Of a DNA stretch of 64,000 nt, positions 27,401 to 51,935 are shown piece after piece. The stretch is from Dermabacter sp. p3-SID358 (GTDB lineage Bacteria; Actinomycetota; Actinomycetes; Actinomycetales; Dermabacteraceae). Each line of letters opens with the position of its first letter. The stretch's first letter is position 1. Made by a program: the position numbers and the translations under genes. The stretch lies in assembly GCF_025147465.1 (NCBI RefSeq), contig NZ_JALXOZ010000011.1, forward strand, positions 14,688-78,687, read 5' to 3'. The notes beneath the pieces are model-generated. The model made no database searches, was not told the DNA's origin, and saw only the letters and a list, made by a program, of their open reading frames with translations.

Positions 27401-28363
27401 ATGATTCAAGTGAGTGAGTTTCGGTCCGACGCCAGCCAGGCAAGCGTCGGAACCTCCAGGCGCGCATTCTTACGCGCCATCCCCGCCACCCTCGCGGCAG
27501 GCGCCCTCGCACCGAGCCTCGGGGCGTGTACCCGGGCCTCCGAAACCCTCGCGGCCGAGGCGAGCCTCATCCCCGAAGTCGACTTCAGCGGGATCGAATA
27601 CCAAGAAAGCATCGCCCGGCTCCTTCCCGAAGAGATCCGCGCCCGCGGCGAACTCGTCAACGGTGCAGAGCTGAGCTACGCCCCGGGCGAATTCCTCAAT
27701 AGTGGCAAAGCGGTTGGCTACGACATCGACCTCCTCACCGCCCTCGGCCTCGTTCTCGGGCTCGAGACGCGCACAGAGTCCGCCGTGTTCTCGCAGATCA
27801 TCCCCGCCGTGGGCAGCAAATACGACGTGGGGATCTCAGGGTTCACGATCAACGATGAGCGGCTCGAAACCGTGACGATGGTGAGCTACTTCGAGGCCGG
27901 CATCTCCTACGCGGTCAAGAAAGGCAACCCTTACGGGATTGATCCGCATGATCTGTGCGGTAAACGCCCCGCGGTGCAGGTCGGCTCCTACCAGGAGGAA
28001 ATTGCCCTCGCAGAGGACGAGAAATGCAGAGCTGCAGGAAAGCGTGGCGTCGACATTCTCGCTTACGCCAACAATTCCGACGCCGTCACCAACGTCGCGG
28101 GAGGCAAGGCCGATGTGCTCATCGCCGATTCGCCCGTGACGAGCTACGCGATCGCGCGTTCGCGCGGGACCCTCGAGCACGTGGGCGAGGTTGAAGAATC
28201 GGCGCTCAACGGGATTGTCGTCAAGAAAGGCGAGGATCAGCTCGCCGAAGCACTGTGCGCGGCCGTGCAGCACCTCATCGACACCGATGCGCTGCGCAGC
28301 ATTATGAGCGCGTGGGGGAACGAGGTAGGGATGATCGAGAAAGCAGAGGTCAAGAAGGCATGA
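27401..28363 (+). CDS. Solute-binding lipoprotein of amino-acid ABC importer (with in-frame palindromic insert)
   Basis: This 320-residue family 3 solute-binding protein has a twin-arginine lipoprotein signal: TSRRAFLRAIPATLAAGAL, then the lipobox SLGAC. The folded part has KAVGYDIDLLTALGLVLGLE and GISGFTINDERLETVTMVSY, typical for polar or basic amino acids. Residues about 8-17 (RSDASQASVGT region) are encoded by a family B palindrome at 27423-27454, between every possible start codon and the twin-arginine pair. No clear ribosome site precedes ATG 27401; GTG 27410 is an alternative. It overlaps the permease gene by four bases. The ligand is inferred from family only. Confidence 0.87.
   Translation: MIQVSEFRSDASQASVGTSRRAFLRAIPATLAAGALAPSLGACTRASETLAAEASLIPEVDFSGIEYQESIARLLPEEIRARGELVNGAELSYAPGEFLNSGKAVGYDIDLLTALGLVLGLETRTESAVFSQIIPAVGSKYDVGISGFTINDERLETVTMVSYFEAGISYAVKKGNPYGIDPHDLCGKRPAVQVGSYQEEIALAEDEKCRAAGKRGVDILAYANNSDAVTNVAGGKADVLIADSPVTSYAIARSRGTLEHVGEVEESALNGIVVKKGEDQLAEALCAAVQHLIDTDALRSIMSAWGNEVGMIEKAEVKKA
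27423..27454 (+). repeat. Family B palindrome, copy B1 (in coding sequence)
   Basis: This 32-bp near-perfect palindrome has left arm GGTCCGACGC and right arm GCGTCGGAACC. Read in the frame of the host gene it encodes S-D-A-S-Q-A-S-V-G-T. It matches copy B2 (50259-50290, opposite strand) at about 27 of 32 positions. Confidence 0.85.
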
Positions 28364-29313
28364 GTACGAGTATCGACACCCCGATCCCCAACCGGATCCG
28401 CGCGAAACGTGCCCCGAGGCCCGGAACATGGATCGCCGCGGTGATCGTCGCACTCCTGAGTGTGGCGCTTATCGTGTTCCTTGCAGGGAACGAGGTTTTC
28501 GAATGGGGCGTCGTTGGGACCTACCTGTTCGACGTCAAGGTCATCACTGGCGTCGGTTGGACGCTACTTCTCACGCTCGTGTCGATGGTGATCGGCACCG
28601 TGATCGCCCTGACCGCCGCGATCATGCGGCTTAGCTCCAACCCCGTTTTGCGGGGCGTCTCGTGGGCCTACATCTTCGTGTTCCGCGGCGTTCCCGTGTA
28701 CACACAGCTCGTGTTCTGGGGTCTCATCACCGTGATCATCCCGAAGATTGTGATTGGTGTGCCATTTGGCCCTGAACTCTTCAGCTTTTCGACCCGCGAG
28801 TTTTTCACGGCATTCTGGGCGGCGGTCGTCGCATTGGGACTCAACGAAGGTGCCTACCTCGCGGAAATCATGCGGGCGGGCCTCACGAGCGTCGAGCGCG
28901 GCCAGAGCGAAGCCGCGAAGTCCCTCGGCATGAAGAACTCACTTATCCTGCGAAGGATCGTGATTCCGCAGGCAATGCGCGTGATTATTCCGCCGCTAGG
29001 CAACGAAACGATCGGCATGCTCAAGACCACGTCGCTCGTGCTCGCCGTGCCGTTCACGCTCGACCTCACCTACGCCTCGAACTCGATCGCGAACCTCCTG
29101 TTCAAACCGGTGCCGATGCTCATCGTCGCGGCCCTGTGGTACCTCGCCGTGACGAGCGTGCTCATGGTTGGCCAGTACTACATCGAGCGGTACTTCGGCA
29201 AGGGGTTCGATGACCGCGCTGGCGTGAAACCGGGTTCGCGTGCTTCGCGTCAAACCTCCGTGAACGCCTCGGGAACAACTCCGAAGGAACCGCTACCGGA
29301 GGTGGAACTGTGA
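28360..29313 (+). CDS. Amino-acid ABC importer permease
   Basis: This 317-residue inner-membrane permease belongs to the HisM/GlnP type. It has an N-terminal helix, then the family block ITGVGWTLLLTLVSMVIGTV, and the ATPase-coupling EAA motif AKSLGMKNSLILRRIVIPQA. The motif FVFRGVPVYTQLVFWG is typical of polar amino acid systems. ATG 28360 overlaps the stop of the binding-protein gene; a longer open frame upstream lies inside that gene. It probably acts as a homodimer because no second permease is present. Confidence 0.92.
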   Translation: MSTSIDTPIPNRIRAKRAPRPGTWIAAVIVALLSVALIVFLAGNEVFEWGVVGTYLFDVKVITGVGWTLLLTLVSMVIGTVIALTAAIMRLSSNPVLRGVSWAYIFVFRGVPVYTQLVFWGLITVIIPKIVIGVPFGPELFSFSTREFFTAFWAAVVALGLNEGAYLAEIMRAGLTSVERGQSEAAKSLGMKNSLILRRIVIPQAMRVIIPPLGNETIGMLKTTSLVLAVPFTLDLTYASNSIANLLFKPVPMLIVAALWYLAVTSVLMVGQYYIERYFGKGFDDRAGVKPGSRASRQTSVNASGTTPKEPLPEVEL

Positions 29314-30146
29314 GTGCAGGCTCGGCAGTGGCAACGACCAACGAGAACGGCAAGGAAGAGAACATGACCATGGCGGCGGCTCCGAAAGTGCAGCTCAACA
29401 ACATCCACAAGGCCTTCGGGGACCTGCACGTTTTGCGCGGCGTCGACCTCGAAATTGGAGAAGGGGAAGTATGCGTTCTCATCGGCCCCTCCGGCTCGGG
29501 TAAATCCACGCTCCTTCGATGCATCAATCAACTGGAAGAGCCAACCGGCGGGAAAGTCCTCATTGACGGGGAACTGCAGGGGTACCAGCCGGAGCCCTTG
29601 GCTGACGGCCGCTGGCAAAAGCTTTCCGAAAAGGAGATCTCCGCGCAGCGCTCGCGCATCTCGATGGTGTTCCAGCGCTTCAACCTGTTTCCGCACATGA
29701 CCGCTCTTGAGAACGTGTGCGAGGCGCCGATTCACGTGCGCGGCGTGCCGAAAGCCGAGGCCCGGGCACAGGCCCTCGAGCTTCTGAAGCGCGTGGGGCT
29801 CGGTGACCGTGCCGATCACTACCCGAGCGAGCTATCCGGCGGTCAGCAGCAGCGCGTCGCGATCGCGCGGGCGCTCGCGATGGAGCCCGAGATCATGCTT
29901 TTCGATGAACCGACATCGGCGCTCGACCCCGAACTCGTTGCCGAAGTCCTCCAGGTCCTCAAGGACCTTGCTGCCGAAGGGCAAACCATGGTCGTCGTGA
30001 CCCACGAGATCGCTTTTGCTCGCGAAGTCGCCGACCACGTCGTGTTCATGGACGGGGGGCAGGCCATCGAGGCCGGGGCGCCGAGCGAAGTCCTCGACAA
30101 TCCCTGCTCGGAGCGACTCAAGGAATTTCTTGCAAGCGTGCTCTAG
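29310..30146 (+). CDS. Amino-acid ABC importer ATPase
   Basis: This 278-residue ATPase of the GlnQ/HisP type has Walker A VLIGPSGSGKSTLLRCINQL and signature LSGGQQQRVAIARALAM. Walker B is IMLFDEPTSALDPELV and the switch is VVTHEIAFARE. GTG 29310 overlaps the permease stop and has GGAGG seven bases upstream. ATG 29364, also with a good site (AAGGAAG), would give the usual family length and is a real alternative. With the two genes before it, it forms a complete importer. Confidence 0.93.
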   Translation: MSAGSAVATTNENGKEENMTMAAAPKVQLNNIHKAFGDLHVLRGVDLEIGEGEVCVLIGPSGSGKSTLLRCINQLEEPTGGKVLIDGELQGYQPEPLADGRWQKLSEKEISAQRSRISMVFQRFNLFPHMTALENVCEAPIHVRGVPKAEARAQALELLKRVGLGDRADHYPSELSGGQQQRVAIARALAMEPEIMLFDEPTSALDPELVAEVLQVLKDLAAEGQTMVVVTHEIAFAREVADHVVFMDGGQAIEAGAPSEVLDNPCSERLKEFLASVL

Positions 30147-30925
30147 CGAGCGGAGCGGAAACGCTCTGCCGCTTCGATGATCTCGCTCGGAGTGCGGTCG
30201 AGATACAGGCCGAAATACTGGAGAGTCACGTCCGGGAGATGCACGGCCAGGCCCGTGCCCTCTTGCCAGCGATGCCTCGTTTCCGAAAGGCGCACCTTGT
30301 GCCACGGGAAGGTTTCGCGCTCGCCGCGAGCGACCACGAGCGTGAGTCCCTCGGAGTCCAGCCACAAGCCTTTCCCGTCTAAGGATCGGCCATACGAGGA
30401 GCCAGCGATGTTCGGGACCCGGAAGACCTCGCCAGCGTTGTCGCCGAGTCTGTCGTAGGCCGAGGAAATCCGCTCCGAAAACTTCCTGCTTCGCGGCTTA
30501 GGGTTTGCGAGATCACGCTCATCGAGCGTATACACACCTTCGGCCGCGTAGCCGTCGGAAAACTCGGGCTCACGCACGGGAGTGAAACGCCCGATGCTTC
30601 CGCCCACCCAGCGGATCACGCGCGACACGAAAGGGATGATGGCGAAAGCGAGAACGCCGAAAACGATGAGCACCGTGAAGCGCATGTCCTCGGGCAGCAC
30701 GTTGCTTCGGTAGAGTGCCGCGGCGATAGCGCCGAGACCGAGGATGAGCGCAAACTTCACAATCATGCTGATCGTGTGGAGTGAGGGGAGAACGTTCCCG
30801 AGGGCGTGATTGACGCTGTCACGCGAGAGGCCCGCATCGCCGAGTGATTCTCGCGCGAAGGCGCCGAATTTCGCACGGGCATCCGGCAAACCGTGATCCT
30901 CATAGCCCACCACGACGGGTTCCAT
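30143..30925 (-). CDS. Membrane protein of unknown function, paralog of 31013-31620
   Basis: This 260-residue protein has two adjacent membrane segments at about residues 55-105 (IVKFALILGLGAIAAALYRS; FTVLIVFGVLAFAIIPFVSR). A soluble C-terminal domain contains SLDGKGLWLDSEGLTLVVAR, then GERETFPWHKVRLSE and a Trp-rich strand. The C-terminal domain looks like a small beta-rich PH-like fold, but I cannot assign a family. ATG 30925 is preferred for its GAGGG site. It is convergent with, and overlaps by four bases, the importer ATPase. The frameshifted gene just upstream is a shorter relative. Confidence 0.75.
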   Translation of the reverse strand: MEPVVVGYEDHGLPDARAKFGAFARESLGDAGLSRDSVNHALGNVLPSLHTISMIVKFALILGLGAIAAALYRSNVLPEDMRFTVLIVFGVLAFAIIPFVSRVIRWVGGSIGRFTPVREPEFSDGYAAEGVYTLDERDLANPKPRSRKFSERISSAYDRLGDNAGEVFRVPNIAGSSYGRSLDGKGLWLDSEGLTLVVARGERETFPWHKVRLSETRHRWQEGTGLAVHLPDVTLQYFGLYLDRTPSEIIEAAERFRSAR

Positions 30926-31012
30926 CTTGAGCCCTCTCTCGCGCCCCTGAATCACTGTTAATTCTATGAGAATATGCGTGGAAAAGTCACCCCCTGACCA
31001 GGCGTAACGTGG

Positions 31013-31620
31013 CTACTGCTCCGCCGTGTGAAGGCGAGAGGCGCGCGCAATGATTTCTGCCGCGCTCAACCCGAGTTTGTCGCCGCTATAGCGCAAACGC
31101 CGATGCGGGAGATGCACGATGAGGTCCATGGTTCCGAACCACAGCACCTTCGCAGTCTCGAGTCGCACCTCGCTCCACGGATACGTCTCGCGCTCGCCGG
31201 GATCGGCGACGAGACTCAGTCCTTCGGGACCAAGCCACAATCCCGTTCCGTCGAGTGCGCGGCCCCATTCGAGCGCGTACTCGCCCTTGGGTGGGGCCGA
31301 GGTGTTGGCTAACGCGTTGAAGCGTTCGAGAAAAGGCGTTCGACGATCGCGCGCCCTTCTCGAAAGAGCGCGAAACCGATCAGAAGCAACATCCCTGCGG
31401 AGGTCACGAAAGAGATGAAGAAGAGCTGGAAGCCGGTCGTCTTCTTCACGATGATGTCGGCGAGGATGCCCGCGATAAGCACGACGATCAACACGCCGGC
31501 GTATCGCCTGCAAAAGGCGAGGAGCGCCTGGATATAGCGGCGTGCGCGCGCCTCGCGTGCACTCGCGGCATCGGCGAGATTTCCATCGTCGTAGCGCACG
31601 GTGGAGGTGCTCTCGTCCAT
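31013..31620 (-). pseudogene. Frameshifted paralog of the 30143-30925 membrane protein
   Basis: Two overlapping frames together make one protein of about 200 residues. The first (from ATG 31620, after GAGAGGGG) encodes an N-terminus and two membrane helices (YAGVLIVVLIAGILADIIV; LFFISFVTSAGMLLLIGFAL) and runs into a stop just past AIVERLF. The second, shifted by -1, continues with ERFNALANTSAPPKG and the C-terminal domain ALDGTGLWLGPEGLSLVADP, GERETYPWSEVRLE, matching the intact neighbour. The shift lies at or near a T4 tract (31331-31334, minus strand). It could be a true pseudogene, a sequencing error or ribosomal slippage; the slippery site is poor, so I favour the first two. Confidence 0.7.
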
Positions 31621-31654
31621 GCCTGCCCCTCTCTCGCCCGTCCGTCCCAACTGT

Positions 31655-31721
31655 TCAGGGTGTAGATAACTGCGTCATAGACCCAGTTTCGGCTTTGCCT
31701 TCCCTCTTTTCTACACCCTCA
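31655..31721 (+). repeat. Family A element, copy A1
   Basis: The core is 59 bp with GGTGTAGATAAC at one end and TTTTCTACACC at the other; the flanking TCA is also mirrored. It lies between the frameshifted gene and the DUF2183 gene. Its last three bases are the stop codon of the DUF2183 gene. Confidence 0.85.
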
Positions 31722-33035
31722 CGGGAGTTTTTCTTCGCCCTCACGTGGGTGACGGCCGAGGATCCCAATCGCGCGCGCCGCCCGGATAAGCCCGAAGCCA
31801 TCGGGTGCACTCACCCACGGGACGCCGTGACGCTCGTGCACGCTCTCGTGCGCATGTTCGGATCGGTTGCGACCCGCGCCGCTCGAAGGAGGTCCGACGG
31901 TTGCCGGGCGGGCGTCGGACTCATTCCTCCCAATCGTGCTGCGCCACACTTTCGGTACCGCCCCCACGAGCGCGCGCCCGAAAGCGCCGATGGAAGCGAG
32001 GGGGCGTTCGGCGCCGTGGGCGAGATCCTGCTCGTCGTCGGTGAGTTCGCGTATCGCGACCGCTGCGACCGATTCCGGGTGATCCTCCACGATGCTGCCG
32101 TAGATTGACGGGTCGTGTTGACCGTCGTCGCCCACGAGGAGCCAGCGGGTGTTCGGGAACATTTCGCGCAGCGAGGCGAGGGTGGTGAACTTGTGTCGCG
32201 TGCCAGAGCGGAAGAAGCCCGTGTTCGTGGGGCCCCAATCGGTGAGCAGGAGGGGCCCGGCGGGGTAGCCGTTCTTGAAAAGGAAGCGCTCGAGCACCGG
32301 GGCAACGTTCCACGCCCCTGTCGAAACGTAGATGAACGGGGTGTTTTCGCCGTAGTGGCGGCGAAGCTGCTGGTAGAACACTGGCATGCCCGGGACGATG
32401 CGGCGCGAGGCTTGCGAAATGACGAAGGCATTCCAGCCCGCGATGAGGGGGCGTGGAAGGAGGGTGATGAGCACCGTGTCGTCGATGTCGCTCACAACGG
32501 CGATCTCCTGCGCCTCGTCGTCAAACACGTGGGCGTTCGCCGTGACGGTGTTGGTGCCGTCGGTGCTGAGGGTGATCTCGTGCAGCCCGGGTTCGAGCTC
32601 GACGGGGATGATTTCGTCGATGATGCCTGAGCGGTCCGCGTAGGTTTCAAAAACTTGTGCGCCCTTAGCGGTGTCGACCGTGATTTCGACGCGAACGTGC
32701 GGGTCGATCTGCGACATGAAGTTGCGAAAACCTCGCCGCGCGAGCGAGCGCATGTCGTAAACGGGCTGATCGAAATGATCGGGTTTCGTGCCGGGCCCCG
32801 CAAAGAGGACGCGTCCGAGAACGCGAACCTTCGTGCGTGAACCGTACGCGGTGTAAGGCTGGATTCGGGCCTCGTAGCCGAGAGTGCGAAGCAGCCGAGC
32901 CATTGCAGTGTTCTTCTTATCCTCGAGGCGCGCCGACCAATGGGGTCGATCGGGGCGCGAGAATGTGTGCGAACCCAAACTCACACCTCCCTGCACCTCG
33001 GATCGCGACAAAGCCCCCGGCGGGAGCTCATTCAT
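31719..33035 (-). CDS. DUF2183 (App1-like phosphatidate phosphatase domain) protein
   Basis: This 438-residue protein has the DUF2183 core, a HAD-like domain named after yeast App1. The nucleophile motif is VVSDIDDTVLITLLPRPL (about residue 195). FIYVSTGAWNVAPVLERFL, LLTDWGPTNTGFFRSGTRHK and LLVGDDGQHDPSIYG follow in family order. A phosphatase activity on lipid or phosphoprotein is possible but unproven for bacterial members. The start is uncertain; a site near MARLLRTLGYEA would also leave the domain intact. The C-terminal tail after the domain contains a family B palindrome (31891-31922, encoding SDARPATVGP), and the stop codon lies at the edge of repeat A1. Confidence 0.82.
   Translation of the reverse strand: MNELPPGALSRSEVQGGVSLGSHTFSRPDRPHWSARLEDKKNTAMARLLRTLGYEARIQPYTAYGSRTKVRVLGRVLFAGPGTKPDHFDQPVYDMRSLARRGFRNFMSQIDPHVRVEITVDTAKGAQVFETYADRSGIIDEIIPVELEPGLHEITLSTDGTNTVTANAHVFDDEAQEIAVVSDIDDTVLITLLPRPLIAGWNAFVISQASRRIVPGMPVFYQQLRRHYGENTPFIYVSTGAWNVAPVLERFLFKNGYPAGPLLLTDWGPTNTGFFRSGTRHKFTTLASLREMFPNTRWLLVGDDGQHDPSIYGSIVEDHPESVAAVAIRELTDDEQDLAHGAERPLASIGAFGRALVGAVPKVWRSTIGRNESDARPATVGPPSSGAGRNRSEHAHESVHERHGVPWVSAPDGFGLIRAARAIGILGRHPREGEEKLP
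31891..31922 (-). repeat. Family B palindrome, copy B3 (in coding sequence)
   Basis: Arms GGTCCGACG and GCGTCGGAC flank the centre GTTGCCGGGCGG. On the minus strand, in the frame of the DUF2183 gene, it encodes S-D-A-R-P-A-T-V-G-P. This is the same phase as copies B1 and B2. Confidence 0.85.
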
Positions 33036-33097
33036 CCTAGTGGACGCGCCGCACGCGACCCTTAACGCGCGCCTCGAAAATGCGGCAAGATAGTGCC

Positions 33098-33625: not shown

Positions 33626-33693
33626 CCCCGAGCCATGAGCAAAGAGGCGATCCGAGTGCGCAGCGATTTCTGAGCGCCGCGAACCGCGGGTAT

Positions 33694-37819: not shown

Positions 37820-38887
37820 TTACGAGAGGGACAGAAAGACCGTTCCCCATCCAAGACCAGCGCACGCGAGCGGTGTGAAGACCCACCACAGCGCGATACC
37901 ACCGAGCACATTCCACGCGACGGACTTCTTCGAGGCCGCAAGCGAGGAGCCGACGATCGAGCCAACAATCGTGAACGATGACGAGATGGGGAGGCCAAGC
38001 CACACGCTCGCGCTATAGAGCAAAGCCGCGGTCGAGGTTTCGGCCGCGAGACCCTGGCTCACCGTGAGGTCGGTCAGGCGCCGGCCGAGTGTGCGCACGA
38101 TTTCGCGGCCACCCACGAACGTGCCGAGGGCCATCGCGCCCGAGAGAAGCAGCGCGATCCACAGGGGGAGGGTGGCGATTCCCGAGTGAGACGAGAGGAG
38201 GTGGCCGAGGGAGCCGTCGGACTCCGGGGCGTGCGTGTAGGAGTCGAGTGCGGCAGACCTGTCGATTTCTGCGAGGGCGACGATGACGATCCCGAGCGGG
38301 AGGCGAATATTGCTGAGTCCGTGTCCAAACGCGACGAGGCCCGCGGTCAGGGTTTGAGTCCACCGCACCGTTTCAGTCGTAAGCCGACGTTTCGACTGGA
38401 GACCACTGACCGCGCGGGTGAGGATGAAACTCAAACCGAAGCCGAGGAGTGGGCCCGCGAGGACAGGGATGAAGAGAGTCGCGATGCCACCTAGCTGACT
38501 CACATTGCCGAGGGCTCCCGCGAACGCGCCTGTGAGTGCCGCGAGAGTTGTGACCCACCCCGAGAGGGGAATGCCGCGCCACCATCCGACGAGAAGGAAG
38601 ACGATGGCGGTCGCGAGTCCGCACGCGAGTGCAACTCCGAGCGAATGCGGCTCATCGAGAAGCGCCCCGGGAACGCCCAGAACCTGGACAAGCGAGAAAT
38701 GCAGAAATACCCCGCTCGCGAGCCCAAACAAGGCGCCCGCACCGTTCATGATCGCCGCGTAGACGAGAGCGAGCCGCTCGGGAAGAACTCGCGTGACGAT
38801 TGTGGTGGTGACCGCGTTCGGGGCGTCCTGGGCGCCGTTTGTGAACGCCCATACGGATGCGAGCGCAACGATGCTCCAGCTGAGCAT
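37820..38887 (-). CDS. PiT-family phosphate transporter-like permease
   Basis: This 355-residue protein has about ten membrane segments. The N-terminal PiT signature is FTNGAQDAPNAVTTTIVTRV. The second, C-terminal signature is changed to FGHGLSNIRLPLGIVIVAL, where most PiT proteins have GxNDAQ. It therefore lacks one of the two conserved Asp residues. ATG 38887 shares one base with the stop of the upstream DUF47 gene (TAATG), indicating coupled translation. The pairing with DUF47 is normal for PiT transporters. Phosphate is the likely substrate, but the altered motif leaves another anion possible. Confidence 0.8.
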   Translation of the reverse strand: MLSWSIVALASVWAFTNGAQDAPNAVTTTIVTRVLPERLALVYAAIMNGAGALFGLASGVFLHFSLVQVLGVPGALLDEPHSLGVALACGLATAIVFLLVGWWRGIPLSGWVTTLAALTGAFAGALGNVSQLGGIATLFIPVLAGPLLGFGLSFILTRAVSGLQSKRRLTTETVRWTQTLTAGLVAFGHGLSNIRLPLGIVIVALAEIDRSAALDSYTHAPESDGSLGHLLSSHSGIATLPLWIALLLSGAMALGTFVGGREIVRTLGRRLTDLTVSQGLAAETSTAALLYSASVWLGLPISSSFTIVGSIVGSSLAASKKSVAWNVLGGIALWWVFTPLACAGLGWGTVFLSLS

Positions 38888-40452: not shown

Positions 40453-40484
40453 AGTTCCGACGGTTGCTCGGCAAGCGTCGGACC
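40453..40484. repeat. Family B palindrome, copy B4 (intergenic)
   Basis: Arms AGTTCCGACG and CGTCGGACC flank the centre GTTGCTCGGCAAG. It lies in the spacer between two divergent genes, 36 bases before GTG 40520 and 46 bases before ATG 40407. Read on the minus strand it would encode S-D-A-C-R-A-T-V-G-T, the same phase as the coding copies. Confidence 0.85.
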
Positions 40485-41128: not shown

Positions 41129-41131
41129 GGA

Positions 41132-43298: not shown

Positions 43299-45617
43299 TT
43301 AGCTGACGCGCGTGAGCTGGAAGAGCACCGTGTTTTCAGGGTTCAGGATCGGGGTTGTGATTCCGACGCTTGCCCACGCCCTACCGCTCAGCACCTGGTC
43401 CGCGATCCCGCGCTCGTGGAGTTCGGCGTTGAGGCGCTCGTAGTCGCGCGCATTGCCCGGCGTGGGAGCGAGGAAGCCCGAAGCGTTGCTCATGACGGGG
43501 GAGGGAACATAGCCAGAGGGCTTCGCGCCCGGCATGAGGACTTCGAGCTTGTAGCGCGCATCGTCCTCGAGGCCCGGGAAGTAGAGCCGACCCGTCTGGT
43601 AGGCGTCGCTCCTCGAAAGCGCGGTGAAGGCAAAGAGGGCCCGGGAAGCGTCGGACGCCACGACCCCGTGCAACGCAACCGATTCGTCGCCGAGATCTAC
43701 ACGCACACGATCGCCCGTGAAGAGAAGCTCGCGCTGGTTCTTGTAGAGGCGAACCCACGCGCCGAGTTCTTCCATCTCCGCATCTGTCGCAAGGCGAAGA
43801 TCCCACTCGATGCCGAAGTGGCCGAAAAGCGCAGTTGCCGCTCGGTAGCCGATCGAGTGGAGGCGGCCCGTCGTGTGCGAAGCGCCCGAAGCGACGTGCG
43901 AGCCCATGAGCTCGAGCGGGATGAGCTGATTGGTCCAGCGGTTCATCATCTGTCGCTCGAGAGGGTCGATGCAGTCCGAGACCCACACGCGATCGGTGCG
44001 TTCGAGAACGCCAAGGTCGATGCGGGCGCCGCCCGAGCCACACGCTTCGATTTCGAGGCCGGGGAAGCGCTCCTTGAGCTCGTCGAGAAGGCGGTACGCG
44101 GCGAGAGTCTGCGCGTGAGTTGCGGGCTGGCCGGTTTCGCGGAATCCTGCCTCGATGAGGTCGCGGTTGTGATCCCACTTGATGTAGTCGATGTCGTAGG
44201 TCTCGAGAATTGCGACCATCTGATCGCGCACATGCGCATACGCCTCGGGAATCGCGAGATTGAGGACCTGCTGGTGGCGTGACTGCTCGGGCAGGCGCTC
44301 CATCGTCGTGCCCATGATCCACTCGGGATGCTCGCGCGCGACATTCGAATCCTCATTCACCATCTCGGGCTCGAACCACAAGCCAAACTGCATGCCGAGG
44401 CCCTTGACGTGCTCGATGAGCGGCGTGAGTCCGTTCGGCCACACGTCCTCACTCACAATCCAATCGCCGAGGCCCGCGTAGTCGTCGCGGCGATCGCCGA
44501 ACCAGCCATCGTCGAGAACGTAGCGCTCGACACCAAGCTCGGCCGCCCGGTCCGCGAGGTCTTTCAGTCGGTCGAGGTCGTGATCGAAGTACACGGCCTC
44601 CCACACATTCAGCGTGACCGGGCGATCCGTGTCCACGTGGTTGTCGCGTGAGCGCAGCCACGCGTGGAAGCGCTGCGCGACCTCATCGAGGCCCACACCG
44701 TGGCTCGCGTACACGTACGGCGATTCATAGCTCTCGTTTTCCGCAAGCACGACCTCACCCGCGAACAGCCCCTCGCCGCCCGCGAGGATTGTTTCGCCCG
44801 CACTCGTACGCTCAACGATGTGCCTGTGCTGGCCGGAAAAGCCCGTGTGCAGTGCCCACACTTCACCGGAGGAGTAGGTGAATCCGCGCTCGCCCACGTG
44901 CAAGAGGAACGCCGAATCGGCGCCCGTGCGGCCGCGGCGGTTCTCGCGCATGTGCTGGCCCACGCGCACCGGTAGGCGCTGGGGTTCGCGCTCGCGGGTC
45001 CAGCGGCCGGCAAAGTCAAGGATCTCGTTCGCTTCCGACGGCACCGGGAGCGCCATCGTGAACGACTGCAGGCGGTAGTTTCCCGCTCCTCGATTCGTGA
45101 GGGTCCCCCTCATGCGCACGAGACCTGAATTCAGGAGCTCGAGGGTGAGAACCACCTTGAGGCCGAGCGGGGCATCCTCGAGTGTGAGGGTGAGAACGTC
45201 CTTTTCGCCGGAACCGTCGGACACGCTGTGCTCAATCGTGTGGGTCGTGAGCCCGAGGCGAGGAGCAAATCCAGCGCCGTTATCGCGCCCGCCGAGGAGG
45301 CCTGGTTCACCGAGCCAGCCGTCGGCGTCCTGGGGCAGGAGGCCCAGTCGCGGCGGGATGTCGAGGGCGTTCTGGTTAGGGGCGACCGTGGCGGCTTCGA
45401 GGAGAAGCTCGAGTTCGGCGTTCGTGAGGTCGCCGAGGTCGGAGCCCCAGTAGACGACGGCGGGCACGCGGCCCGCGGTGAGATCGAGGGCGATGCTGAC
45501 TCCCGCGCGGCTCAGGTAGAGGGCGTTCTCGGTTTCGAGGGCACGAGAGTCGGCTGCGCGGAACGCGCGGAAGGAGCGAGAGGCGGCGGGGGCGTGGGCA
45601 GTGCGGGCGAGTGACAT
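43299..45617 (-). CDS. Alpha-galactosidase, GH36
   Basis: This 772-residue glycoside hydrolase is of the large bacterial GH36 type, which removes alpha-galactose from melibiose, raffinose or galactolipids. The nucleophile Asp is in YDIDYIKWDHNRDLIEAG and the acid/base Asp in RVWVSDCIDPLERQMM. The substrate pocket includes YVLDDGWFGDRRDD and WFEPEMVNEDS. It has no signal peptide, so it acts on imported sugars. ATG 45617 is preceded by AAAGGACTTCCTTC. The leader carries a 15-bp tandem repeat and, further up, an AT-rich inverted repeat. Bases 43352-43366 equal the right arm of family B and encode ASVG. Confidence 0.92.
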   Translation of the reverse strand: MSLARTAHAPAASRSFRAFRAADSRALETENALYLSRAGVSIALDLTAGRVPAVVYWGSDLGDLTNAELELLLEAATVAPNQNALDIPPRLGLLPQDADGWLGEPGLLGGRDNGAGFAPRLGLTTHTIEHSVSDGSGEKDVLTLTLEDAPLGLKVVLTLELLNSGLVRMRGTLTNRGAGNYRLQSFTMALPVPSEANEILDFAGRWTREREPQRLPVRVGQHMRENRRGRTGADSAFLLHVGERGFTYSSGEVWALHTGFSGQHRHIVERTSAGETILAGGEGLFAGEVVLAENESYESPYVYASHGVGLDEVAQRFHAWLRSRDNHVDTDRPVTLNVWEAVYFDHDLDRLKDLADRAAELGVERYVLDDGWFGDRRDDYAGLGDWIVSEDVWPNGLTPLIEHVKGLGMQFGLWFEPEMVNEDSNVAREHPEWIMGTTMERLPEQSRHQQVLNLAIPEAYAHVRDQMVAILETYDIDYIKWDHNRDLIEAGFRETGQPATHAQTLAAYRLLDELKERFPGLEIEACGSGGARIDLGVLERTDRVWVSDCIDPLERQMMNRWTNQLIPLELMGSHVASGASHTTGRLHSIGYRAATALFGHFGIEWDLRLATDAEMEELGAWVRLYKNQRELLFTGDRVRVDLGDESVALHGVVASDASRALFAFTALSRSDAYQTGRLYFPGLEDDARYKLEVLMPGAKPSGYVPSPVMSNASGFLAPTPGNARDYERLNAELHERGIADQVLSGRAWASVGITTPILNPENTVLFQLTRVS

Positions 45618-45681: not shown

Positions 45682-45701
45682 TTATTTTCACACCAAAATA
45701 A
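45682..45701. promoter_or_regulatory. AT-rich inverted repeat, candidate operator
   Basis: TTATTTT and AAAATAA are perfect inverted repeats separated by CACACC. This is an AT island in the spacer between the divergent alpha-galactosidase and aminotransferase genes. It is a candidate operator or promoter core for the alpha-galactosidase gene. Confidence 0.4.
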
Positions 45702-45720
45702 ACGCGCGTCTACCTCCCGT

Positions 45721-45786
45721 TCAGGGTGGAGAAAAACGACATTGCACCCCTGATTTCGGGCATCCCCATGCAGTTTTCTCCACCTA
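45721..45786 (+). repeat. Family A element, copy A2
   Basis: The core is 60 bp with ends GGTGGAGAAAA and TTTTCTCCACC (a GGAG variant of GTAG). It aligns without gaps to copy A3, with interior matches such as CCCCTGATT and GCAT. It ends 39 bases before the aminotransferase start. Confidence 0.85.
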
Positions 45787-45824
45787 TACGATGGGGGATT
45801 GCGCTTGGGGTTACACTCGGCGAC

Positions 45825-47036
45825 ATGGAATTCACGCAGGCGGCGAAGCTACAGAACGTCCTCTACGACATCCGCGGGCCGGTCCTCGACGAGGCCGCGC
45901 GCATGGAGAACGAGGGGCACCGCATTCTCAAGCTCAACATCGGCAACCCCGCGCCGTTCGGCTTCGAAACGCCCGACGAGATCCTCGTCGACTTCATCCG
46001 CCAGGCTCACGTCTCCCAGGGCTACACCGATTCCAAAGGCATCGTCGCGGCCCGTCGCGCCGTTGCCCAGCACTACCAAACCCGCGGCCTGCCAGGGCTC
46101 CACCTCGACGACATCTACCTCGGCAACGGAGTGAGCGAGCTGATCCAGCTCACCGCTCAAGCACTCGTCAACGACGGCGACGAGGTGCTCATCCCCATGC
46201 CCGACTACCCGCTGTGGACCGCGTGTGTCACCCTCGCGGGCGGGACTCCCGTGCACTACCGCCTCGATGAAGATAACGACTGGTTGCCCGACCTCACCGA
46301 CATCGCCGACAAGGTCACGCCCCGCACCAAAGCCATCGTCGTCATCAACCCCAATAACCCCACCGGTGCGGTGTACACGAAAGAGAACCTCACGGGCATA
46401 GTCGACATCGCCCGCAAGCACGGGCTCATGATCCTCGCCGACGAGATCTACGACAAGATCCTCTACGACGACGCGACCCACACCTCGATCGCCTCGCTCG
46501 CCCCCGACCTCTTCACGATCACCTACAACGGCCTGTCCAAGGCCTACCGGGTCGCGGGTTTCCGTGCCGGCTGGATGGCGCTGTACGGGCCGAAAGAACA
46601 TGCCAAAGGCTTCATCGAGGGCCTCGACATGCTCTCGAACATGCGCCTATGCGCCAATGCTCCCGCGCAGCACGTGATCCCCACTGCGCTCGGCGGCTAT
46701 CAAACGATCAAAGACCTCGTGGCCCCAGGTGGTCGGCTGCGTGAGCAGCGCGATGTCGCCTACGAGGCCCTCGCACGGATCCCCGGCGTAAGCGTCAACA
46801 AGGCGAAGGGGGCGCTCTACATGTTCCCGAAGATCGACCTCGACATGTACAAGATCGAGGACGACGAAGAATTCGCACTCGGCCTGCTTCGCCAGAAGAA
46901 AATCCTCATCACAAAAGGCACGGGATTCAACATCCCCACGCACGACCACTTCCGCGTCGTGACCCTGCCCGACGCGGACGTGCTCGAGAACGCGATCGAC
47001 CGTATCGCCGACTACCTCGCGAGCATCCGCCGCTAG
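45825..47036 (+). CDS. Alanine-type PLP aminotransferase (AlaA-like)
   Basis: This 403-residue class I aminotransferase starts EFTQAAKLQNVLYDIRGPVL, typical of the AlaA (alanine-pyruvate) group. It has LNIGNPAPFGFETPDEI, the pocket VIPMPDYPLWTACVTLAGGT, and the PLP-anchoring NPNNPTGAVY. The Schiff-base Lys lies in ITYNGLSKAYRVAGFRAGW. ATG 45825 suits the family start; the open frame extends upstream through repeat A2 without homology. The likely reaction is glutamate + pyruvate to alanine + 2-oxoglutarate, inferred from the group. It is convergent with fprA. Confidence 0.9.
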   Translation: MEFTQAAKLQNVLYDIRGPVLDEAARMENEGHRILKLNIGNPAPFGFETPDEILVDFIRQAHVSQGYTDSKGIVAARRAVAQHYQTRGLPGLHLDDIYLGNGVSELIQLTAQALVNDGDEVLIPMPDYPLWTACVTLAGGTPVHYRLDEDNDWLPDLTDIADKVTPRTKAIVVINPNNPTGAVYTKENLTGIVDIARKHGLMILADEIYDKILYDDATHTSIASLAPDLFTITYNGLSKAYRVAGFRAGWMALYGPKEHAKGFIEGLDMLSNMRLCANAPAQHVIPTALGGYQTIKDLVAPGGRLREQRDVAYEALARIPGVSVNKAKGALYMFPKIDLDMYKIEDDEEFALGLLRQKKILITKGTGFNIPTHDHFRVVTLPDADVLENAIDRIADYLASIRR

Positions 47037-47054
47037 CAGCGTGTGGTGCGCCGG

Positions 47055-48506
47055 TTATTCGCCGCGCGCAATCCGGATCATCTGCTCGCGGTCGATCTCC
47101 TTGAGCGATGGGCGTGCGTTACCGTCGGAATCCTTCCGCTTCGCACCCGCCTGGATCTCGTGTTCGTGTAGGCGCAGCCACCCGTCCCAGTCGACGTAGC
47201 GAATGCCGCGCTCGTTCAGTAGGCGCACGATCGAATCGGGATCGCGGTCGGCGCACGGCTCGAGCACGCCACCTTCGATGTCTTCGATCATGTGGGTGAC
47301 GGTCTCGATCGCGTCGGATTTCGTGGCGCCGATGAGGCCCACGGGCCCACGCTTGATCCAGCCGTTCGCGTAGCACGCGGGCACAACAGCGCCCTCGGCG
47401 GTCGTGACACGGCCCTCGTCGTTGTGGATAACGCCGCGCACCGGGTCATAGGGAACCCCGGGCAACTCCGAGCCGAAGTAGCCGACGGCGCGGTAGACCT
47501 GCTGCACGTCGTACTCGACCATCTCGCCCGTGCCCTCGAGCGAGCCATCCTCCGCGAGACGCGTGCGTTCGAACCGCATGCCGGTCACGCGGCCGTTCTC
47601 GCCGAGCACCTCCACGGGGCGGTGCCAGAAATGAAGATGGAGCCGACGCTTCACCTCACCACCATCGCGATCTGTGGGCTCTGCCCCGCTCGTCTCGCGC
47701 TCTTTTTGCGCCTCGAGCCAGCTCTCGAACGTGCTTACGACCTGATCGATGCGTTTATCCGAGCGGATTCGCTCCCATTCCTCATCGGTGATCTGAGCGA
47801 AATCGCGTTCGTCTACAACGACCTGCACGCCCTTCGGATGGGCGAGCTCGCGCGTTTCGAGCGGGGAGAATTTGGCCTGTGCGGGGCCGCGGCGACCAAA
47901 CACGTGTACGTCGGTGATCCGGGAGGCCTTGAGGCCCTCGTACACGTTGTCGGCGATCTCGGTCGAGAGAAGTTCGTCGGCGCTCTTGGTGAGCATGCGC
48001 GACACGTCGAGCGCGACGTTGCCATTGCCGATCACGGCGACGGATTCGGCATCGAGGTTCCACTCGCGCGGGTAATCGGGGTTGGAGTCGTACCACGCGA
48101 CGAAATCGGCAGCGCCGAGGCTGCCCTCGAGGTCGATTCCTGGGATGTCGAGCTGGGCGTCCTTGAGGGCGCCGGTCGCGAAAATGATCGCGTCGTAACG
48201 TTCGCGGAGGTCCTCGATACTCAGATCTTTTCCAAACGCGACGTTGCCGAAGAAACGCATATCGCGGCGATCGAGGATACGGTGGAGCGCGGTCGTGATG
48301 CCCTTGATGCGCGGATGGTCGGGCGCGACGCCGTAGCGGATGAGTCCAAACGGTGTCGGGAGCGCATCGAAGATATCGACCTCGATCTTCAGGCGCCCCT
48401 TCTTCGCATGCGGCGTCTTGTTGAACGTCTCCGCCGCATACACGCCGGCCGGGCCGGAGCCAATCACGGCGATGCGAAACGGGATGTCTGTGAAAGTGCT
48501 GGTCAC
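47055..48506 (-). CDS. fprA: Ferredoxin/NADP reductase, FprA type
   Basis: This 483-residue adrenodoxin-reductase-like flavoprotein moves electrons between NADPH and ferredoxin. The FAD fold is RIAVIGSGPAGVYAAETFNK. PTPFGLIRYGVAPDHPRIKG is the family hallmark. The NADP fold is VAVIGNGNVALDVSRMLTKS, and the C-terminal FAD contact is GWIKRGPVGLIGATKSDAIE. GTG 48506 is chosen because AAGGA lies upstream and the family starts there; the longer open frame would run through repeat A3. The ferredoxin partner is not in the window. Confidence 0.93.
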   Translation of the reverse strand: MTSTFTDIPFRIAVIGSGPAGVYAAETFNKTPHAKKGRLKIEVDIFDALPTPFGLIRYGVAPDHPRIKGITTALHRILDRRDMRFFGNVAFGKDLSIEDLRERYDAIIFATGALKDAQLDIPGIDLEGSLGAADFVAWYDSNPDYPREWNLDAESVAVIGNGNVALDVSRMLTKSADELLSTEIADNVYEGLKASRITDVHVFGRRGPAQAKFSPLETRELAHPKGVQVVVDERDFAQITDEEWERIRSDKRIDQVVSTFESWLEAQKERETSGAEPTDRDGGEVKRRLHLHFWHRPVEVLGENGRVTGMRFERTRLAEDGSLEGTGEMVEYDVQQVYRAVGYFGSELPGVPYDPVRGVIHNDEGRVTTAEGAVVPACYANGWIKRGPVGLIGATKSDAIETVTHMIEDIEGGVLEPCADRDPDSIVRLLNERGIRYVDWDGWLRLHEHEIQAGAKRKDSDGNARPSLKEIDREQMIRIARGE

Positions 48507-48874
48507 GGAGGTCCTTATGCTCGGCGGGTGTGCGTGCAGCGCGCCTATTGCGCCGCGGGCTTTTCGACACTCGAGACTAGCGTTAAAGCGTCCCCCGGGC
48601 GAGGGAGGTGTGAGCAGCGCGCGGAGATTGGGCAGTGTGGTCAAAGGGGCGGTCACGGGGGCGAAGTGCGACGGTTGCCCTCTCCTCAGTTCGCCCCACG
48701 TGCATGCACACATGCTTGAGGGTGGAGAAAAATGACGCGACGCCCCTGATTCGAGGCATGCCTGGTCACTTTTCTCCACCCTCATACAGTTGTCGTGCTT
48801 TTCGGTTCGGGTCGGGGCGAGGCGGGGCGCCCGAGCACGCCTCTAGGGGCGTGCCCGGCCGACTTAGCGAAGGT
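48507..48874. other. 368-base spacer holding repeats
   Basis: There is no credible gene here. It holds a possible half copy of family B (GTGCGACGGTTGCC, 48666-48679) and, about 40 bases on, the full family A copy A3. The remainder is GC-rich, without clear hairpins. Confidence 0.6.
48718..48783 (+). repeat. Family A element, copy A3
   Basis: The 60-bp core has ends GGTGGAGAAAAA and CTTTTCTCCACC, with GAG/CTC mirrored outside. It is closest to A2 and lies between the fprA start and the end of the AIM24 gene. Confidence 0.85.
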
Positions 48875-49540
48875 TTAGTACTCGGCCGGCTGCACGATCA
48901 CGAAGCCGGGGCCGTGGAAGGCGAGCTGGAAGGTTTCACCCGAGCCGCGGCCGATGAGCGCGCCCGCGTTGAAGTCGTTCTTGATCTGCGGTTGGAGGTT
49001 CGCCGACCAGCACACGACCGCCTGCGGGTCCACGTACGTGGGCTGCTGCGAGCAGTCGAGAAGAAGAGGCTCGCCGTGCGAGGTGATCGCGACCATGCCG
49101 TGGCCCTGGAGAAAAAGGTTGGTAAAGCCGCCCGCGACGAGACCTGCGCCGAGGCCGCCGCCGATCATCTTGATGTCCCATTCGATGCTCGAGTCGAACG
49201 CGAGCATCTTCGTTGTATTGAGCGAGAGGGCTTCGCCCTCGAGTTGAATGAGGAAGATTTGCGAGCCGTTCTTCGCGAAGAAGATCTCGCCATTGCCGGT
49301 GGTGCGCATCATGTTGGCGCCCTCGCCCGTGGCCATCTTCTTCACGAGCCTCATGCCGCCGCCCGAGCCCTGGTACTTGAACTTCATCTCGCCCTGGTAG
49401 GCGACCATGGCGCCCGCGGAGGAGACGATCTCGGGTGCGCCCGGGTTAAGACGGCAGCGCAGCATGCGCTTGGACTGGAGTGCCCAGCGGTCTTGGGTCT
49501 GGACTTCTTGGTGCTCAGGTGAAAAGAGTTCAGATCTCAT
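48875..49540 (-). CDS. AIM24-family protein
   Basis: This 221-residue beta-rich cytoplasmic protein belongs to the AIM24/TIGR00266 family. Its features are SAGAMVAYQGEMKFKYQGSG, the glycine patch MIGGGLGAGLVAGGFTNLFL, QGHGMVAITSHGEPLLLDC, and the terminal region YVDPQAVVCWSANLQPQIKN. The family is named after a yeast mitochondrial protein; the bacterial role is unknown. ATG 49540 fits the family start. It is separated from copA by 61 bases on the same strand and could be read through from it. Confidence 0.85.
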   Translation of the reverse strand: MRSELFSPEHQEVQTQDRWALQSKRMLRCRLNPGAPEIVSSAGAMVAYQGEMKFKYQGSGGGMRLVKKMATGEGANMMRTTGNGEIFFAKNGSQIFLIQLEGEALSLNTTKMLAFDSSIEWDIKMIGGGLGAGLVAGGFTNLFLQGHGMVAITSHGEPLLLDCSQQPTYVDPQAVVCWSANLQPQIKNDFNAGALIGRGSGETFQLAFHGPGFVIVQPAEY

Positions 49541-49601
49541 GCCCTCACCATAGGTTGTGGCGGCTCCCACTTTCCTGGAGGTCATGAGATCAGAACAATT
49601 G

Positions 49602-51935
49602 TTATTGGAATCGTTTGAGGCGAAGCGAGTTGCTCACGACGAAAACGCTCGAAAACGCCATCGCGGCGGCCGCGATCACGGGGCCGAGAAGGCCGATCAT
49701 GGCGAGCGGGATCGCGATGACGTTGTAGATGAATGCCCAGAACAGGTTCCAGCGGATCGTGCGCACGCACGCGCGCGAAAGCCGAATCGCGGTGGGGATT
49801 TGTGCAATGTCGCCACCGGCGAGCACGATGTCGCCCGAGTTCATTGCGGCATCGGTGCCCGTGCCCATCGCGAAGCCGAGATCAGCCTCGGCGAGGGCCG
49901 CGGTGTCATTGATGCCATCGCCCACCATGGCTACGCTCGAGCCTTCGCTGCGAAGTGATCGCACGAGTTCGAGCTTCGCCGCAGGCGTGAGTGACGCATG
50001 GACCTTCTCGATGCCGACCTCGCGCGCGATGTGCCGCGCCGCAGCGGGGTTGTCGCCCGTAGCCATGACGGGCTCGATGCCGAGCGCGCGAATCTCCTCA
50101 ACGACCTTCGTCGCTTCGGGCTTCACGGTGTCGCTCACGCGCACGAGCCCCGCAACCTCGCCGTTGACGCGCACGAGGGAGGTCGTGTGCCCCGCCTGCG
50201 CGGCTTCGCGGAGGGAAGCGGAGAGGGGTGCTGGCAGGGCGGGTGCGCTCGGGTTTTCGGTTCCGACGCTTGCTTGGCCAGCGTCGGAGAACGCAGAGAT
50301 GTCAATCTCCCACGGGCCTTTACGCTCACCGAGCGACCCGCTCACGCGCGCCGTGATTCCCCGACCGGCGTGCGCCTGAGCCTCCTCGAGGATGAGCGCA
50401 GCGCTACCGCTGCCCGCAGCCTCGACGATCGCCCGCGCGATGGGGTGCTCCGAGCCAGATTCGGCGGCGCCCGCGAGCGCAAGAACCTCCTCTTCGCTCC
50501 AGCCGCTCGCCGGCGTTACCGAGTGCACGCGCATCGCGCCGCTCGTGAGCGTGCCGGTCTTGTCGAGAACGATAGCCGCGATTTCGCGCGAGGCTTCGAG
50601 CGTGCTCGCCGAGCGAATGAGGATGCCGAGCTCGGCGCCCCGTCCCGTGCCTACCATGATCGCCGTAGGTGTCGCGAGGCCGAGTGCGCACGGGCACGCG
50701 ATGATGAGCACGGCAACGGCCGCGGTGAATGCTTGCTCGGCGGTGTTGCCGAGGGCAAGCCACGCGATGAGCGTGAGGACGGCGAGCACGATGACGACGG
50801 GCACGAAGATGCTCGCGACCTTGTCGACGAGCTGCTGCACTGGAGCTTTGGAGGCTTGCGCGTCCTCGACCATCTTCGCGATATGGGCGAGCTCGGTGTC
50901 GGCACCCACGCGCGTCGCGCGTACGAGAAGTCGGCCCGTGGTGTTGACGGTCGCGCCGGCGACCTCGCTTCCCGCGCTCACCTCCTCGGGTACGCTTTCG
51001 CCCGTGAGCATCGAGCGGTCGATCGCGGAGGAGCCCTCGAGGATCACGCCGTCAGTCGCGATCTTCTCCCCGGGTCTCACGACGAACACGTCGCCGACGC
51101 GCACCTTGCCGATCGGGATCTCGACTTCGGCGGTGGTGCCGTCGGACCGAAGCTCCACGATGGTGGCCCTCTTCGCGCCAAGATCGAGCAGCGAGCGGAT
51201 CGCCGCGCTCGACTGGTGGATGGCACGAGCCTGCGCGTAGCGACCCACGAGCACGAGGGTCGTGATGACCGCCGCCGATTCAAAGTAGATTTCGTGCGCG
51301 CCGTGGTCGCCCCGGCTGAAGGCTGCGCCGAGACTCATGTCCATCTGCATGCCGATCTCGCCCGCGCCCCCGAAAAGGAGCGCCCAAATCGACCACAGAT
51401 AGGCGGCGAACGTGCCCATCGTGACGAGCGTGTCCATCGTGAAGCCACCGTGCTTGATGTTCACCCAGGTCGCGCGGTGGAATGGGGCACCGCAGTACAG
51501 CACGACAGGCGTTGCGAGGACGAGCATCGCCCACTGCCAGCCTGGAAACTGGAGCGGCGGGATCATCGAGATGAGGAAGATCGGCGTGGAGAGGATTGCC
51601 GCGAGGATCGTGCGGTTCAGCGTTTCGCGCTTGTCGCGCGCGGCGCGTTCCTCGGCGCTCGTGTCCGGACCTGCGTTGGTTGTGCTTTCGGTAGCTGCCT
51701 CTCGCACGTGTGCCCCGTAGCCACCTTTCTCTACGGCTTCGACGAGCTGCGCATCCGTGATGGATGGGTCATTCACCTGCACGCTCGCGCGTTCGAGCGC
51801 GAGGTTCACGACCGCATCGACCTCGCCCACGCGCCGCAGCTTCTTCTCGACGCGCGCAACGCAACTTGCGCACGTCATGCCGGTGACGTCGAGGGTGACG
51901 GTTCGCGGTTCGGTAGGTGGTTTGGTGCTGGTCAC
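49602..51935 (-). CDS. copA: Copper-exporting P1B-type ATPase (with in-frame palindromic insert)
   Basis: This 777-residue heavy-metal pump has one N-terminal HMA domain (VTGMTCASCVARVEKKLRRV) and the metal-channel motif IIACPCALGLATPTAIMVGT in helix 6. The phosphorylation site is IVLDKTGTLTSGAM, the His-Pro motif is SEHPIARAI, and the hinge is VGDGINDTAALAEADLGFAM. The CPC motif and the copZ neighbour point to Cu(I) export. Residues about 549-559 (FSDAGQASVGT) are encoded by family B palindrome B2 and fall in the nucleotide-binding domain between the HP motif and the hinge. GTG 51935 has GAAGG upstream. It lies 48 bases after copZ. Confidence 0.94.
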   Translation of the reverse strand: MTSTKPPTEPRTVTLDVTGMTCASCVARVEKKLRRVGEVDAVVNLALERASVQVNDPSITDAQLVEAVEKGGYGAHVREAATESTTNAGPDTSAEERAARDKRETLNRTILAAILSTPIFLISMIPPLQFPGWQWAMLVLATPVVLYCGAPFHRATWVNIKHGGFTMDTLVTMGTFAAYLWSIWALLFGGAGEIGMQMDMSLGAAFSRGDHGAHEIYFESAAVITTLVLVGRYAQARAIHQSSAAIRSLLDLGAKRATIVELRSDGTTAEVEIPIGKVRVGDVFVVRPGEKIATDGVILEGSSAIDRSMLTGESVPEEVSAGSEVAGATVNTTGRLLVRATRVGADTELAHIAKMVEDAQASKAPVQQLVDKVASIFVPVVIVLAVLTLIAWLALGNTAEQAFTAAVAVLIIACPCALGLATPTAIMVGTGRGAELGILIRSASTLEASREIAAIVLDKTGTLTSGAMRVHSVTPASGWSEEEVLALAGAAESGSEHPIARAIVEAAGSGSAALILEEAQAHAGRGITARVSGSLGERKGPWEIDISAFSDAGQASVGTENPSAPALPAPLSASLREAAQAGHTTSLVRVNGEVAGLVRVSDTVKPEATKVVEEIRALGIEPVMATGDNPAAARHIAREVGIEKVHASLTPAAKLELVRSLRSEGSSVAMVGDGINDTAALAEADLGFAMGTGTDAAMNSGDIVLAGGDIAQIPTAIRLSRACVRTIRWNLFWAFIYNVIAIPLAMIGLLGPVIAAAAMAFSSVFVVSNSLRLKRFQ
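50259..50290 (-). repeat. Family B palindrome, copy B2 (in coding sequence)
   Basis: Arms GGTTCCGACGCT and GCGTCGGAGA flank the centre TGCTTGGCCA. In the copA frame it encodes S-D-A-G-Q-A-S-V-G-T, nine of ten residues identical to the product of copy B1. Confidence 0.87.

Follow-up and report, generated by a model that had tools for sequence, protein, structure and literature searches.

A 64,000-nucleotide stretch of DNA from Dermabacter sp. p3-SID358 (contig NZ_JALXOZ010000011.1, positions 14,688 to 78,687; hereafter the window) carries five copies of a 27-bp palindrome, TCCGACG-N13-CGTCGGA, with perfect 7-bp arms. Each palindrome pairs two copies of a word that is specific to the genus and under constraint, the half-site TCCGACG-NNN-GCC being the unit. 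Within the genus this word changes through point mutations at orthologous positions and not through insertion, and the palindrome is not mobile. The word may be bound as DNA by one protein and, by analogy with known systems, its most likely role is that of a DNA uptake sequence (DUS), a reading held with a little less than even confidence. The original prediction had described five copies of a mobile or spreading palindrome, comparable to the Rickettsia palindromic elements (RPEs), three of them read in frame in unrelated proteins. All five are present, and they are also recovered as a repeat family; the starts first given for them lie 2–3 bases further out, flanking bases having been counted. 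As an observation of palindromes this was correct but incomplete, as the half-site by itself, TCCGACGG, is the top-scoring 8-mer of the window (21 seen, 3.1 expected). The search motif proposed at the same time, with four bases between the halves, has 0 matches even at 3 mismatches, the real distance being one base.

The window was compared with three other Dermabacter genomes (G001, G002 and G042), to which it aligns over most of its length at about 77–89%. G001 and G002 are the records of Dermabacter indicis (Helcobacillus massiliensis genome assembly) and Dermabacter hominis, and the DUF2183 protein of the window is 88% and 85% identical to theirs in the best segments. The G042 sample comprises about 746 kb of 2.39 Mb, of which 480 kb were drawn evenly or along the window, and the remainder was chosen around palindromes and pilus or competence genes. 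Wider counts cover 47 genomes of the family (the 3 Dermabacter and 44 others) and 396 of the order, with the reversed pattern as the control for the palindrome and for TCCGACG-NNN-GCC. Gene calls come from a purpose-written codon-usage script. The 62 exact 12-mers discussed below include both halves of pairs as well as orthologs between window and G042, and the 81 palindromes also include orthologs; any p-value for which these sites were taken as independent is too small.

The word is abundant in Dermabacter. TCCGACG is the most over-represented 7-mer of the 480-kb G042 sample (234 seen, 96 expected), and TCCGACG-NNN-GCC occurs 108 times in the 746 kb, where 4.3 copies are expected. In the genomes of G001, G002 and G042 it is found 310, 257 and 282 times (control 12, 13 and 13), and in the other 44 family genomes 7 to 79 times. 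The longer form TCCGACGGTTGC alone has 121, 101 and 100 copies in the same three genomes (control 0, 0 and 1), while TCCGACGSTTGCC never exceeds 2 copies per genome in the other 394 of the 396 order genomes. Exact palindromes number 29, 24 and 28, with a control of 0 in each, and the other 44 of the 47 family genomes have 0 or 1. Most copies of the word are unpaired. They are found on either strand, both within genes and outside them. In the 746 kb of G042, clear tolerance of change is limited to the first base of the core (GCCGACG 2.9-fold, CCCGACG 1.75-fold), and the other 18 single changes occur at 0 to 1.3 times expectation; among variants of the 13-mer, excess is almost confined to the first and inner positions.

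The sites are conserved well beyond their surroundings. G042 and G001 align over 285.5 kb at 87.6% identity, and there the core is intact at 38 of 42 strong coding sites and 19 of 20 intergenic ones. Background windows are intact in 45% (coding) and 52% (intergenic) of cases and the local flanks in 41% and 48%, so that the sites lie in somewhat less conserved surroundings. Fisher's test of core against local flanks, with windows treated as independent, gives p = 9e-11 for coding and 2.5e-5 for intergenic sites. TCCGACG as a whole is intact in 83% of 142 cases, and the best of 100 permuted 7-mers reaches 66%. Besides the core, conservation extends to the GC(C) of positions +10 to +12, with +7 to +9 free to vary. 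Among 53 exact 12-mers listed, 35 are aligned (counted by eye) and 31 of these keep the core; in the remaining four, substitutions have disrupted it (one copy also has a 1-base indel at its edge), and none is absent as a unit.

Palindromes behave in the same way. In the main insertion test, based on the 480-kb set and on G001 stretches placed by palindrome matching between genomes (a milder bias), 8 of the 9 perfect palindromes of the G042 stretches are spanned by the G001 alignment, and all 8 have a counterpart (7 perfect, 1 with a single arm mismatch). From the other side, 10 of the 13 perfect palindromes of the G001 stretches are spanned and all 10 have a counterpart (7 perfect, 3 with one mismatch). 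Both directions together give 11 distinct spanned loci, and 11 of 11 hold the palindrome. One further locus, seen from both sides, is aligned through the palindrome and not beyond, and two G001 palindromes fall outside the comparison, the sampled G042 DNA not covering them. A second, partly overlapping set has a counterpart at 12 of 12 spanned loci, with 4 of 16 not spanned; it is biased towards finding counterparts, since some of its G042 DNA was drawn around palindromes.

The geometry of pairing is fixed. In 544 kb (the 480-kb sample plus the window), convergent cores lie 20 bases apart 14 times, and at any other distance up to 200 bases such pairs occur at most twice, none of these distances being enriched. 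The bases between the cores do not form a maintained stem. Over the 81 palindromes of the three genomes, complementarity of the inner arm pairs is about as independence predicts or less, from the outermost pair (7/19, G/C next to the core; 25 complementary, 36.6 expected) to the innermost (46, 41.7 expected). As the inner arm positions do not covary, no hairpin is selected, and the two half-sites vary independently. Recognition as DNA is also more likely than recognition as RNA because coding sites occur in both orientations. The deficit at the outermost pair is a separate curiosity, as if perfect inverted repeats were avoided. An Rfam search of window positions 26000–62500 at E up to 0.5 returned one tRNA and nothing else.

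Three palindromes of the window lie within open reading frames, all in phase 0, and encode SDASQASVGT, SDARPATVGP and SDAGQASVGT, as originally described. This is the phase of all seven perfect palindromes that lie within genes in the sample (4 distinct loci); three one-mismatch copies in genes are in phase 2. Since 27 bases make 9 codons, both orientations of the palindrome give the same phase, and codon preference may be what sets it. The decapeptide common to unrelated proteins probably follows from the DNA motif as a side effect. That the peptide itself is the selected feature is unlikely, as conservation is just as strong at intergenic sites, and single words are found in either orientation and in more than one phase.

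Related words characterize most of the family. In 80-kb samples from five non-Dermabacter genomes, the over-represented words are GGCCGACGG in G041, TGGCCGAC in G046, a weaker CGTCGGC in G003, and GGCCGACGGG-TYC in G044, where GGCCGACGGG is seen 39 times (1.5 expected); in the G043 sample no related over-represented word was found. For scale, 80 kb of Dermabacter contains TCCGACG-NNN-GC[CT] 17 times in G042 and 15 times in G001, and in the latter sample TCCGACG is outside the top eight 7-mers, with the gapped form among the top words. At least 100 copies of GGCCGACGGG, and at least three times the control, are present in 40 of the 44 non-Dermabacter genomes, with a maximum of 1,536 (G004); G043, G045, G046 and G047 fall below this level, and Dermabacter genomes have 5 to 11 copies. 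Outside the family, 4 of 362 genomes reach it (G242, G268, G333 and G369; counted by eye). In G044, GGCCGACGGG is not explained by codon bias, as shuffling codons leaves 1.2 of the 34 coding copies; these copies occur in both orientations and several phases, and 34 of the 39 in the sample are inside genes. GGCCGACG in G003 shows a weak contrast in such a shuffle (54 vs 27). TCCGACG-NNN-GCC, GGCCGACGGG and TGGCCGAC have CCGAC(G) in common. G004, the genome richest in GGCCGACGGG, also has short tandem runs of it, with steps of 22, 15 or 18 bases (G004:C1:58383-58458, 111877-111916 and 185000-185045).

These properties resemble those of the DUS of Neisseriaceae and the uptake signal sequences (USS) of Pasteurellaceae. 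Like these, the Dermabacter word is short, asymmetric and among the most over-represented oligomers, with hundreds of copies where the known systems have hundreds to thousands; it lies on both strands, in coding and intergenic DNA with a coding deficit, changes by substitution, has family dialects around a shared core, and forms dyad pairs in at least one genus. DUS likewise evolve by point mutation at orthologous places (PMC7811141), and in Simonsiella muelleri they form dyad-arranged pairs for which a dimer has been suggested (PMC3630211). Much of what marks an uptake sequence is present (PMC3630211, PMC7811141): the copy number, the even use of both strands, sites where change is tolerated, divergence through substitutions, and dialects. 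By analogy the word may work as an uptake code in the manner of DUS. There are also differences. Sequence and phylum are other ones (letter by letter the word differs from GCCGTCTGAA of Neisseria, the one dialect compared), the copy number in Dermabacter is lower, one-off cores show no clear excess, and the Dermabacter pair has one fixed spacing without hairpin complementarity.

An uptake role could work as follows. A single protein would bind, as DNA, a recognition word of about [G][G/T]TCCGACG-NNN-GCC, reading the 7-bp core and the GCC one helical turn further as a half-site, and the fixed 27-bp palindrome would offer two half-sites to a dimer. As a self tag, the word would bias natural transformation (ComEA/ComEC with a Tad/Flp pilus) in favor of DNA from kin, and biased uptake followed by recombination would create and restore it at permissive places, protein linkers included. 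Binding by one protein, service in uptake, and maintenance of the sites by such a drive rather than by a function at each site are all steps that we infer. A bolder form of the proposal, put forward more tentatively, is that Dermabacteraceae may possess a self-recognition uptake code, TCCGACG-NNN-GCC in Dermabacter and GGCCGACGGG in most others, read by the receptor of a Tad/Flp-pilus competence system and evolved independently outside the Proteobacteria; in Dermabacter the receptor would probably be a dimer. Transformation of Micrococcus luteus goes through Flp pili (PMC6370729), and G042 has uptake machinery in the form of ComEA, ComEC and two Tad-type loci. An exact 12-mer copy of the word also lies within comEC in each of the three Dermabacter genomes (G042:C1:1114412, G001:C11:69965, G002:C4:10721).

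Several observations weigh against an uptake role. All 10 of the family genomes tested have ComEC and T2SSE matches. One of them is G043, where neither word is over-represented, so these matches do not discriminate. A density of one strict site per 7–8.6 kb is below that of Neisseriaceae DUS, with about 940–5,900 copies per genome (PMC3630211). DUS genomes hold many one-off copies (PMC3630211), while the pool of one-mismatch copies here shows no clear excess of 7-bp core variants beyond the first base. The samples from sister genera showed no pairs of fixed spacing. Unaligned, possibly acquired segments show no depletion of sites, with 6 in 13 kb and, in aligned DNA, 103 in 286 kb (p = 0.48, with little power). 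To these are added features that favor one or other of the alternatives below: a lean of palindromes towards dnaA, an excess of words between divergent genes, extra residues in CopA, and traces of a second arm beside single words.

The main rival to uptake is a chromosome-binding protein. Noc, SlmA and MatP are models of proteins that organize or segregate chromosomes, and the word may be the site of such a protein, or of another global DNA-binding protein, with palindromes as full dimer sites and single words as weaker half-sites, each kept by selection; this is a serious possibility, somewhat fainter than the uptake proposals. The strict 20-bp spacing of the pairs, the two sharp contact blocks one turn apart, the lack of hairpin covariation, and the strong conservation of each site without a clear excess of changed cores would all fit. 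Position 1 of G042:C1 is within dnaA and therefore probably near the origin, and of 46 G042 palindromes with at most one arm mismatch, 31 are in the dnaA half and 15 in the other (p = 0.026), a weak hint for such an organizer. The lean is 17 to 11 for perfect palindromes (p = 0.34). Single words are even, however: exact forward 12-mers number 45 in the dnaA half, around position 1, and 45 outside it. Hundreds of unpaired words also speak against an organizer, as do the sister-genus words, with up to 1,536 copies that are mostly inside genes.

Alternatively, a transcription factor that controls a large regulon could use the words as operators, which is unlikely. The 62 exact 12-mers comprise 36 in coding DNA, 12 between divergent, 9 between tandem and 4 between convergent genes, and 1 at a stretch end. 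The word is thereby under-represented in coding DNA (84% expected at random) and 5.5-fold enriched between divergent genes (3.5% expected), as for a regulator, and the dyad is operator-like. However, more than half of the sites are intragenic, with a conservation about equal to that of the intergenic ones, and no common distance to gene starts is apparent by eye in the intergenic list.

A mobile palindrome related to RPEs, to miniature inverted-repeat transposable elements (MITEs) or to repetitive extragenic palindromic (REP) sequences, inserting in frame and leaving single words as decayed copies, is very improbable. Its appeal is clear enough, as RPEs and MITEs are also palindromic and found in frame in unrelated genes with a conserved peptide, and the family is real, highly over-represented and tolerated in coding sequence, as had been proposed. 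RPEs are insertions of about 150 bp, however (PMC10969869), while the Dermabacter element has 27 bp, consists mostly of unpaired words and keeps orthologous places across the genus. No spanned locus in the genus shows presence in one genome and absence in another, cores are kept at about twice the background rate without decay, and sister genera carry related single words without paired forms; mobility within the genus is largely contradicted. Alignment of the three host proteins to orthologs, the check suggested for insertion, gives a mixed result. The DUF2183 site aligns without a gap to relatives outside the genus, in a variable linker (e.g. P0005), and the lipoprotein site is in an N-terminal tail of variable length, a few residues different from most outside relatives. 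CopA alone fits, its nearest outside relative (G041) lacking the 12 residues SDAGQASVGTEN at the palindrome; the loop is longer still in the relatives L113 and L117, where it includes GGCCGACG, the sister word's core. From these sequences, the CopA palindrome may possibly have been inserted before the genus diverged. Also on the side of mobility, unpaired 12-mers (n = 42) match the expected second arm at 2.48 of 7 positions on average (1.92 in random DNA, p = 0.002), so some single words appear to be partial pairs, and the palindrome at 57897 is private to the window among the four genomes. At 57897–58789 it abuts a gene with a DUF559 match (a REase_MTES_1575 match is below its cut-off), in a region poorly alignable to the other three genomes.

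RNA hairpins acting as transcription terminators or processing sites are the least probable explanation, since, although some palindromes lie 3' of genes and carry T runs (e.g. L036:7032, G042:C1:667032), the inner arms are complementary at chance or less, genes contain 11 of the 21 palindromes that have no more than one mismatch, and coding sites face both ways, which contradicts this reading for most copies. Intrinsic terminators in particular were rejected, stem complementarity not being maintained. Chi and KOPS (FtsK orienting polar sequences) are likewise short words with many copies; a word of this type was rejected because there is no replichore strand skew (90 forward, 91 reverse; forward copies 42 and 48 in the two chromosome halves). 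The highly repeated short word HIP1 of cyanobacteria is another parallel, but it is an 8-bp palindrome, GCGATCGC, linked to methyltransferases (PMC4390886), and the Dermabacter word is asymmetric with a gapped second block.

The pairs and a selection of single half-sites are listed in Table 1. Listed with them is a second, distinct repeat family of about 65–70 bp, with TTCAGGGTGTAGAAAA-like and TTTTCTACACCCTGAA-like inverted ends, at six places in 28 kb, which has no Rfam match at E up to 0.5. In the G042 sample a further CCACAACCCCTATGCAAT-like word is over-represented (L031–L034 among others), with about 10–12 copies in 480 kb; it could be a clustered repeat.

Table 1. Palindromic pairs, host reading frames, single half-sites and a second repeat family in the window, with their state in other Dermabacter genomes.
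Feature	Position	Strand	Context and conservation
Palindromic pair 1	27425–27451		N-terminal part of solute-binding lipoprotein, before twin-arginine stretch; both arms perfect in G042, G001 and G002
Host reading frame, pair 1	27401–28363	+	
Palindromic pair 2	31893–31919		Variable linker near C-terminus of DUF2183/App1 protein; perfect in G042, one arm mismatch each in G001 and G002
Host reading frame, pair 2	31719–33035	-	Gene call to 32984
Palindromic pair 3	40456–40482		Flanked by divergent genes whose called starts are 48 and 37 bases away; G042 has one arm mismatch; both arms perfect and spacer one base shorter in G002; no alignable region in G001
Palindromic pair 4	50262–50288		Length-variable loop of CopA-type ATPase; both arms perfect in three other Dermabacter genomes
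Host reading frame, pair 4	49602–51935	-	
Palindromic pair 5	57897–57923		2 bases beyond stop of DUF559-type gene; no counterpart in G001, G002 or G042, locus not alignable
Single half-site TCCGACGCTTCCC	502–514	+	Between genes; core kept in G001 and G002 (two alignable genomes)
Single half-site TCCGACGGCTGCC	20906–20918	-	Coding; core kept in G042 and G002 (G001 GCCGACG)
Single half-site TCCGACGCTTCCC	25317–25329	+	Coding; core kept in three other genomes despite nearby alignment gaps
Single half-site TCCGACGGCTCCC	38209–38221	-	Coding; core kept in three other genomes
Single half-site TCCGACGCTTGCC	43362–43374	+	Coding; core intact in 2 of 3 other genomes (TCCGATG in G042)
Single half-site TCCGACGGTTGCC	53815–53827	-	Coding; core kept in G042, one change each in G001 and G002
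Single half-site TCCGACGGTTGCT	61018–61030	+	Intergenic; core kept in three other genomes
Single half-site TCCGACGGTTGCC	62222–62234	-	Intergenic; 13 of 13 bases kept in three other genomes, flanks differ
Second repeat family	about 31657–31720, 45720–45789, 48716–48785, 57799–57869, 58895–58961, 59022–59093		

Strong uptake-sequence preferences have been described for two proteobacterial families (PMC7811141), and in literature on DNA uptake sequences in Gram-positives and Actinobacteria, on transformation in Micrococcus luteus and Brachybacterium, and on Dermabacter genomes, no actinobacterial uptake sequence is named among the matches listed. If the Dermabacter word does serve uptake, it would be an uptake-sequence system outside the Proteobacteria, and the self-tagging of DNA would have evolved again in Gram-positives, perhaps together with a Tad-type pilus. 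In-frame palindromes can also be read anew, as cases in which a motif acting at the level of DNA can impose a common peptide on unrelated proteins.

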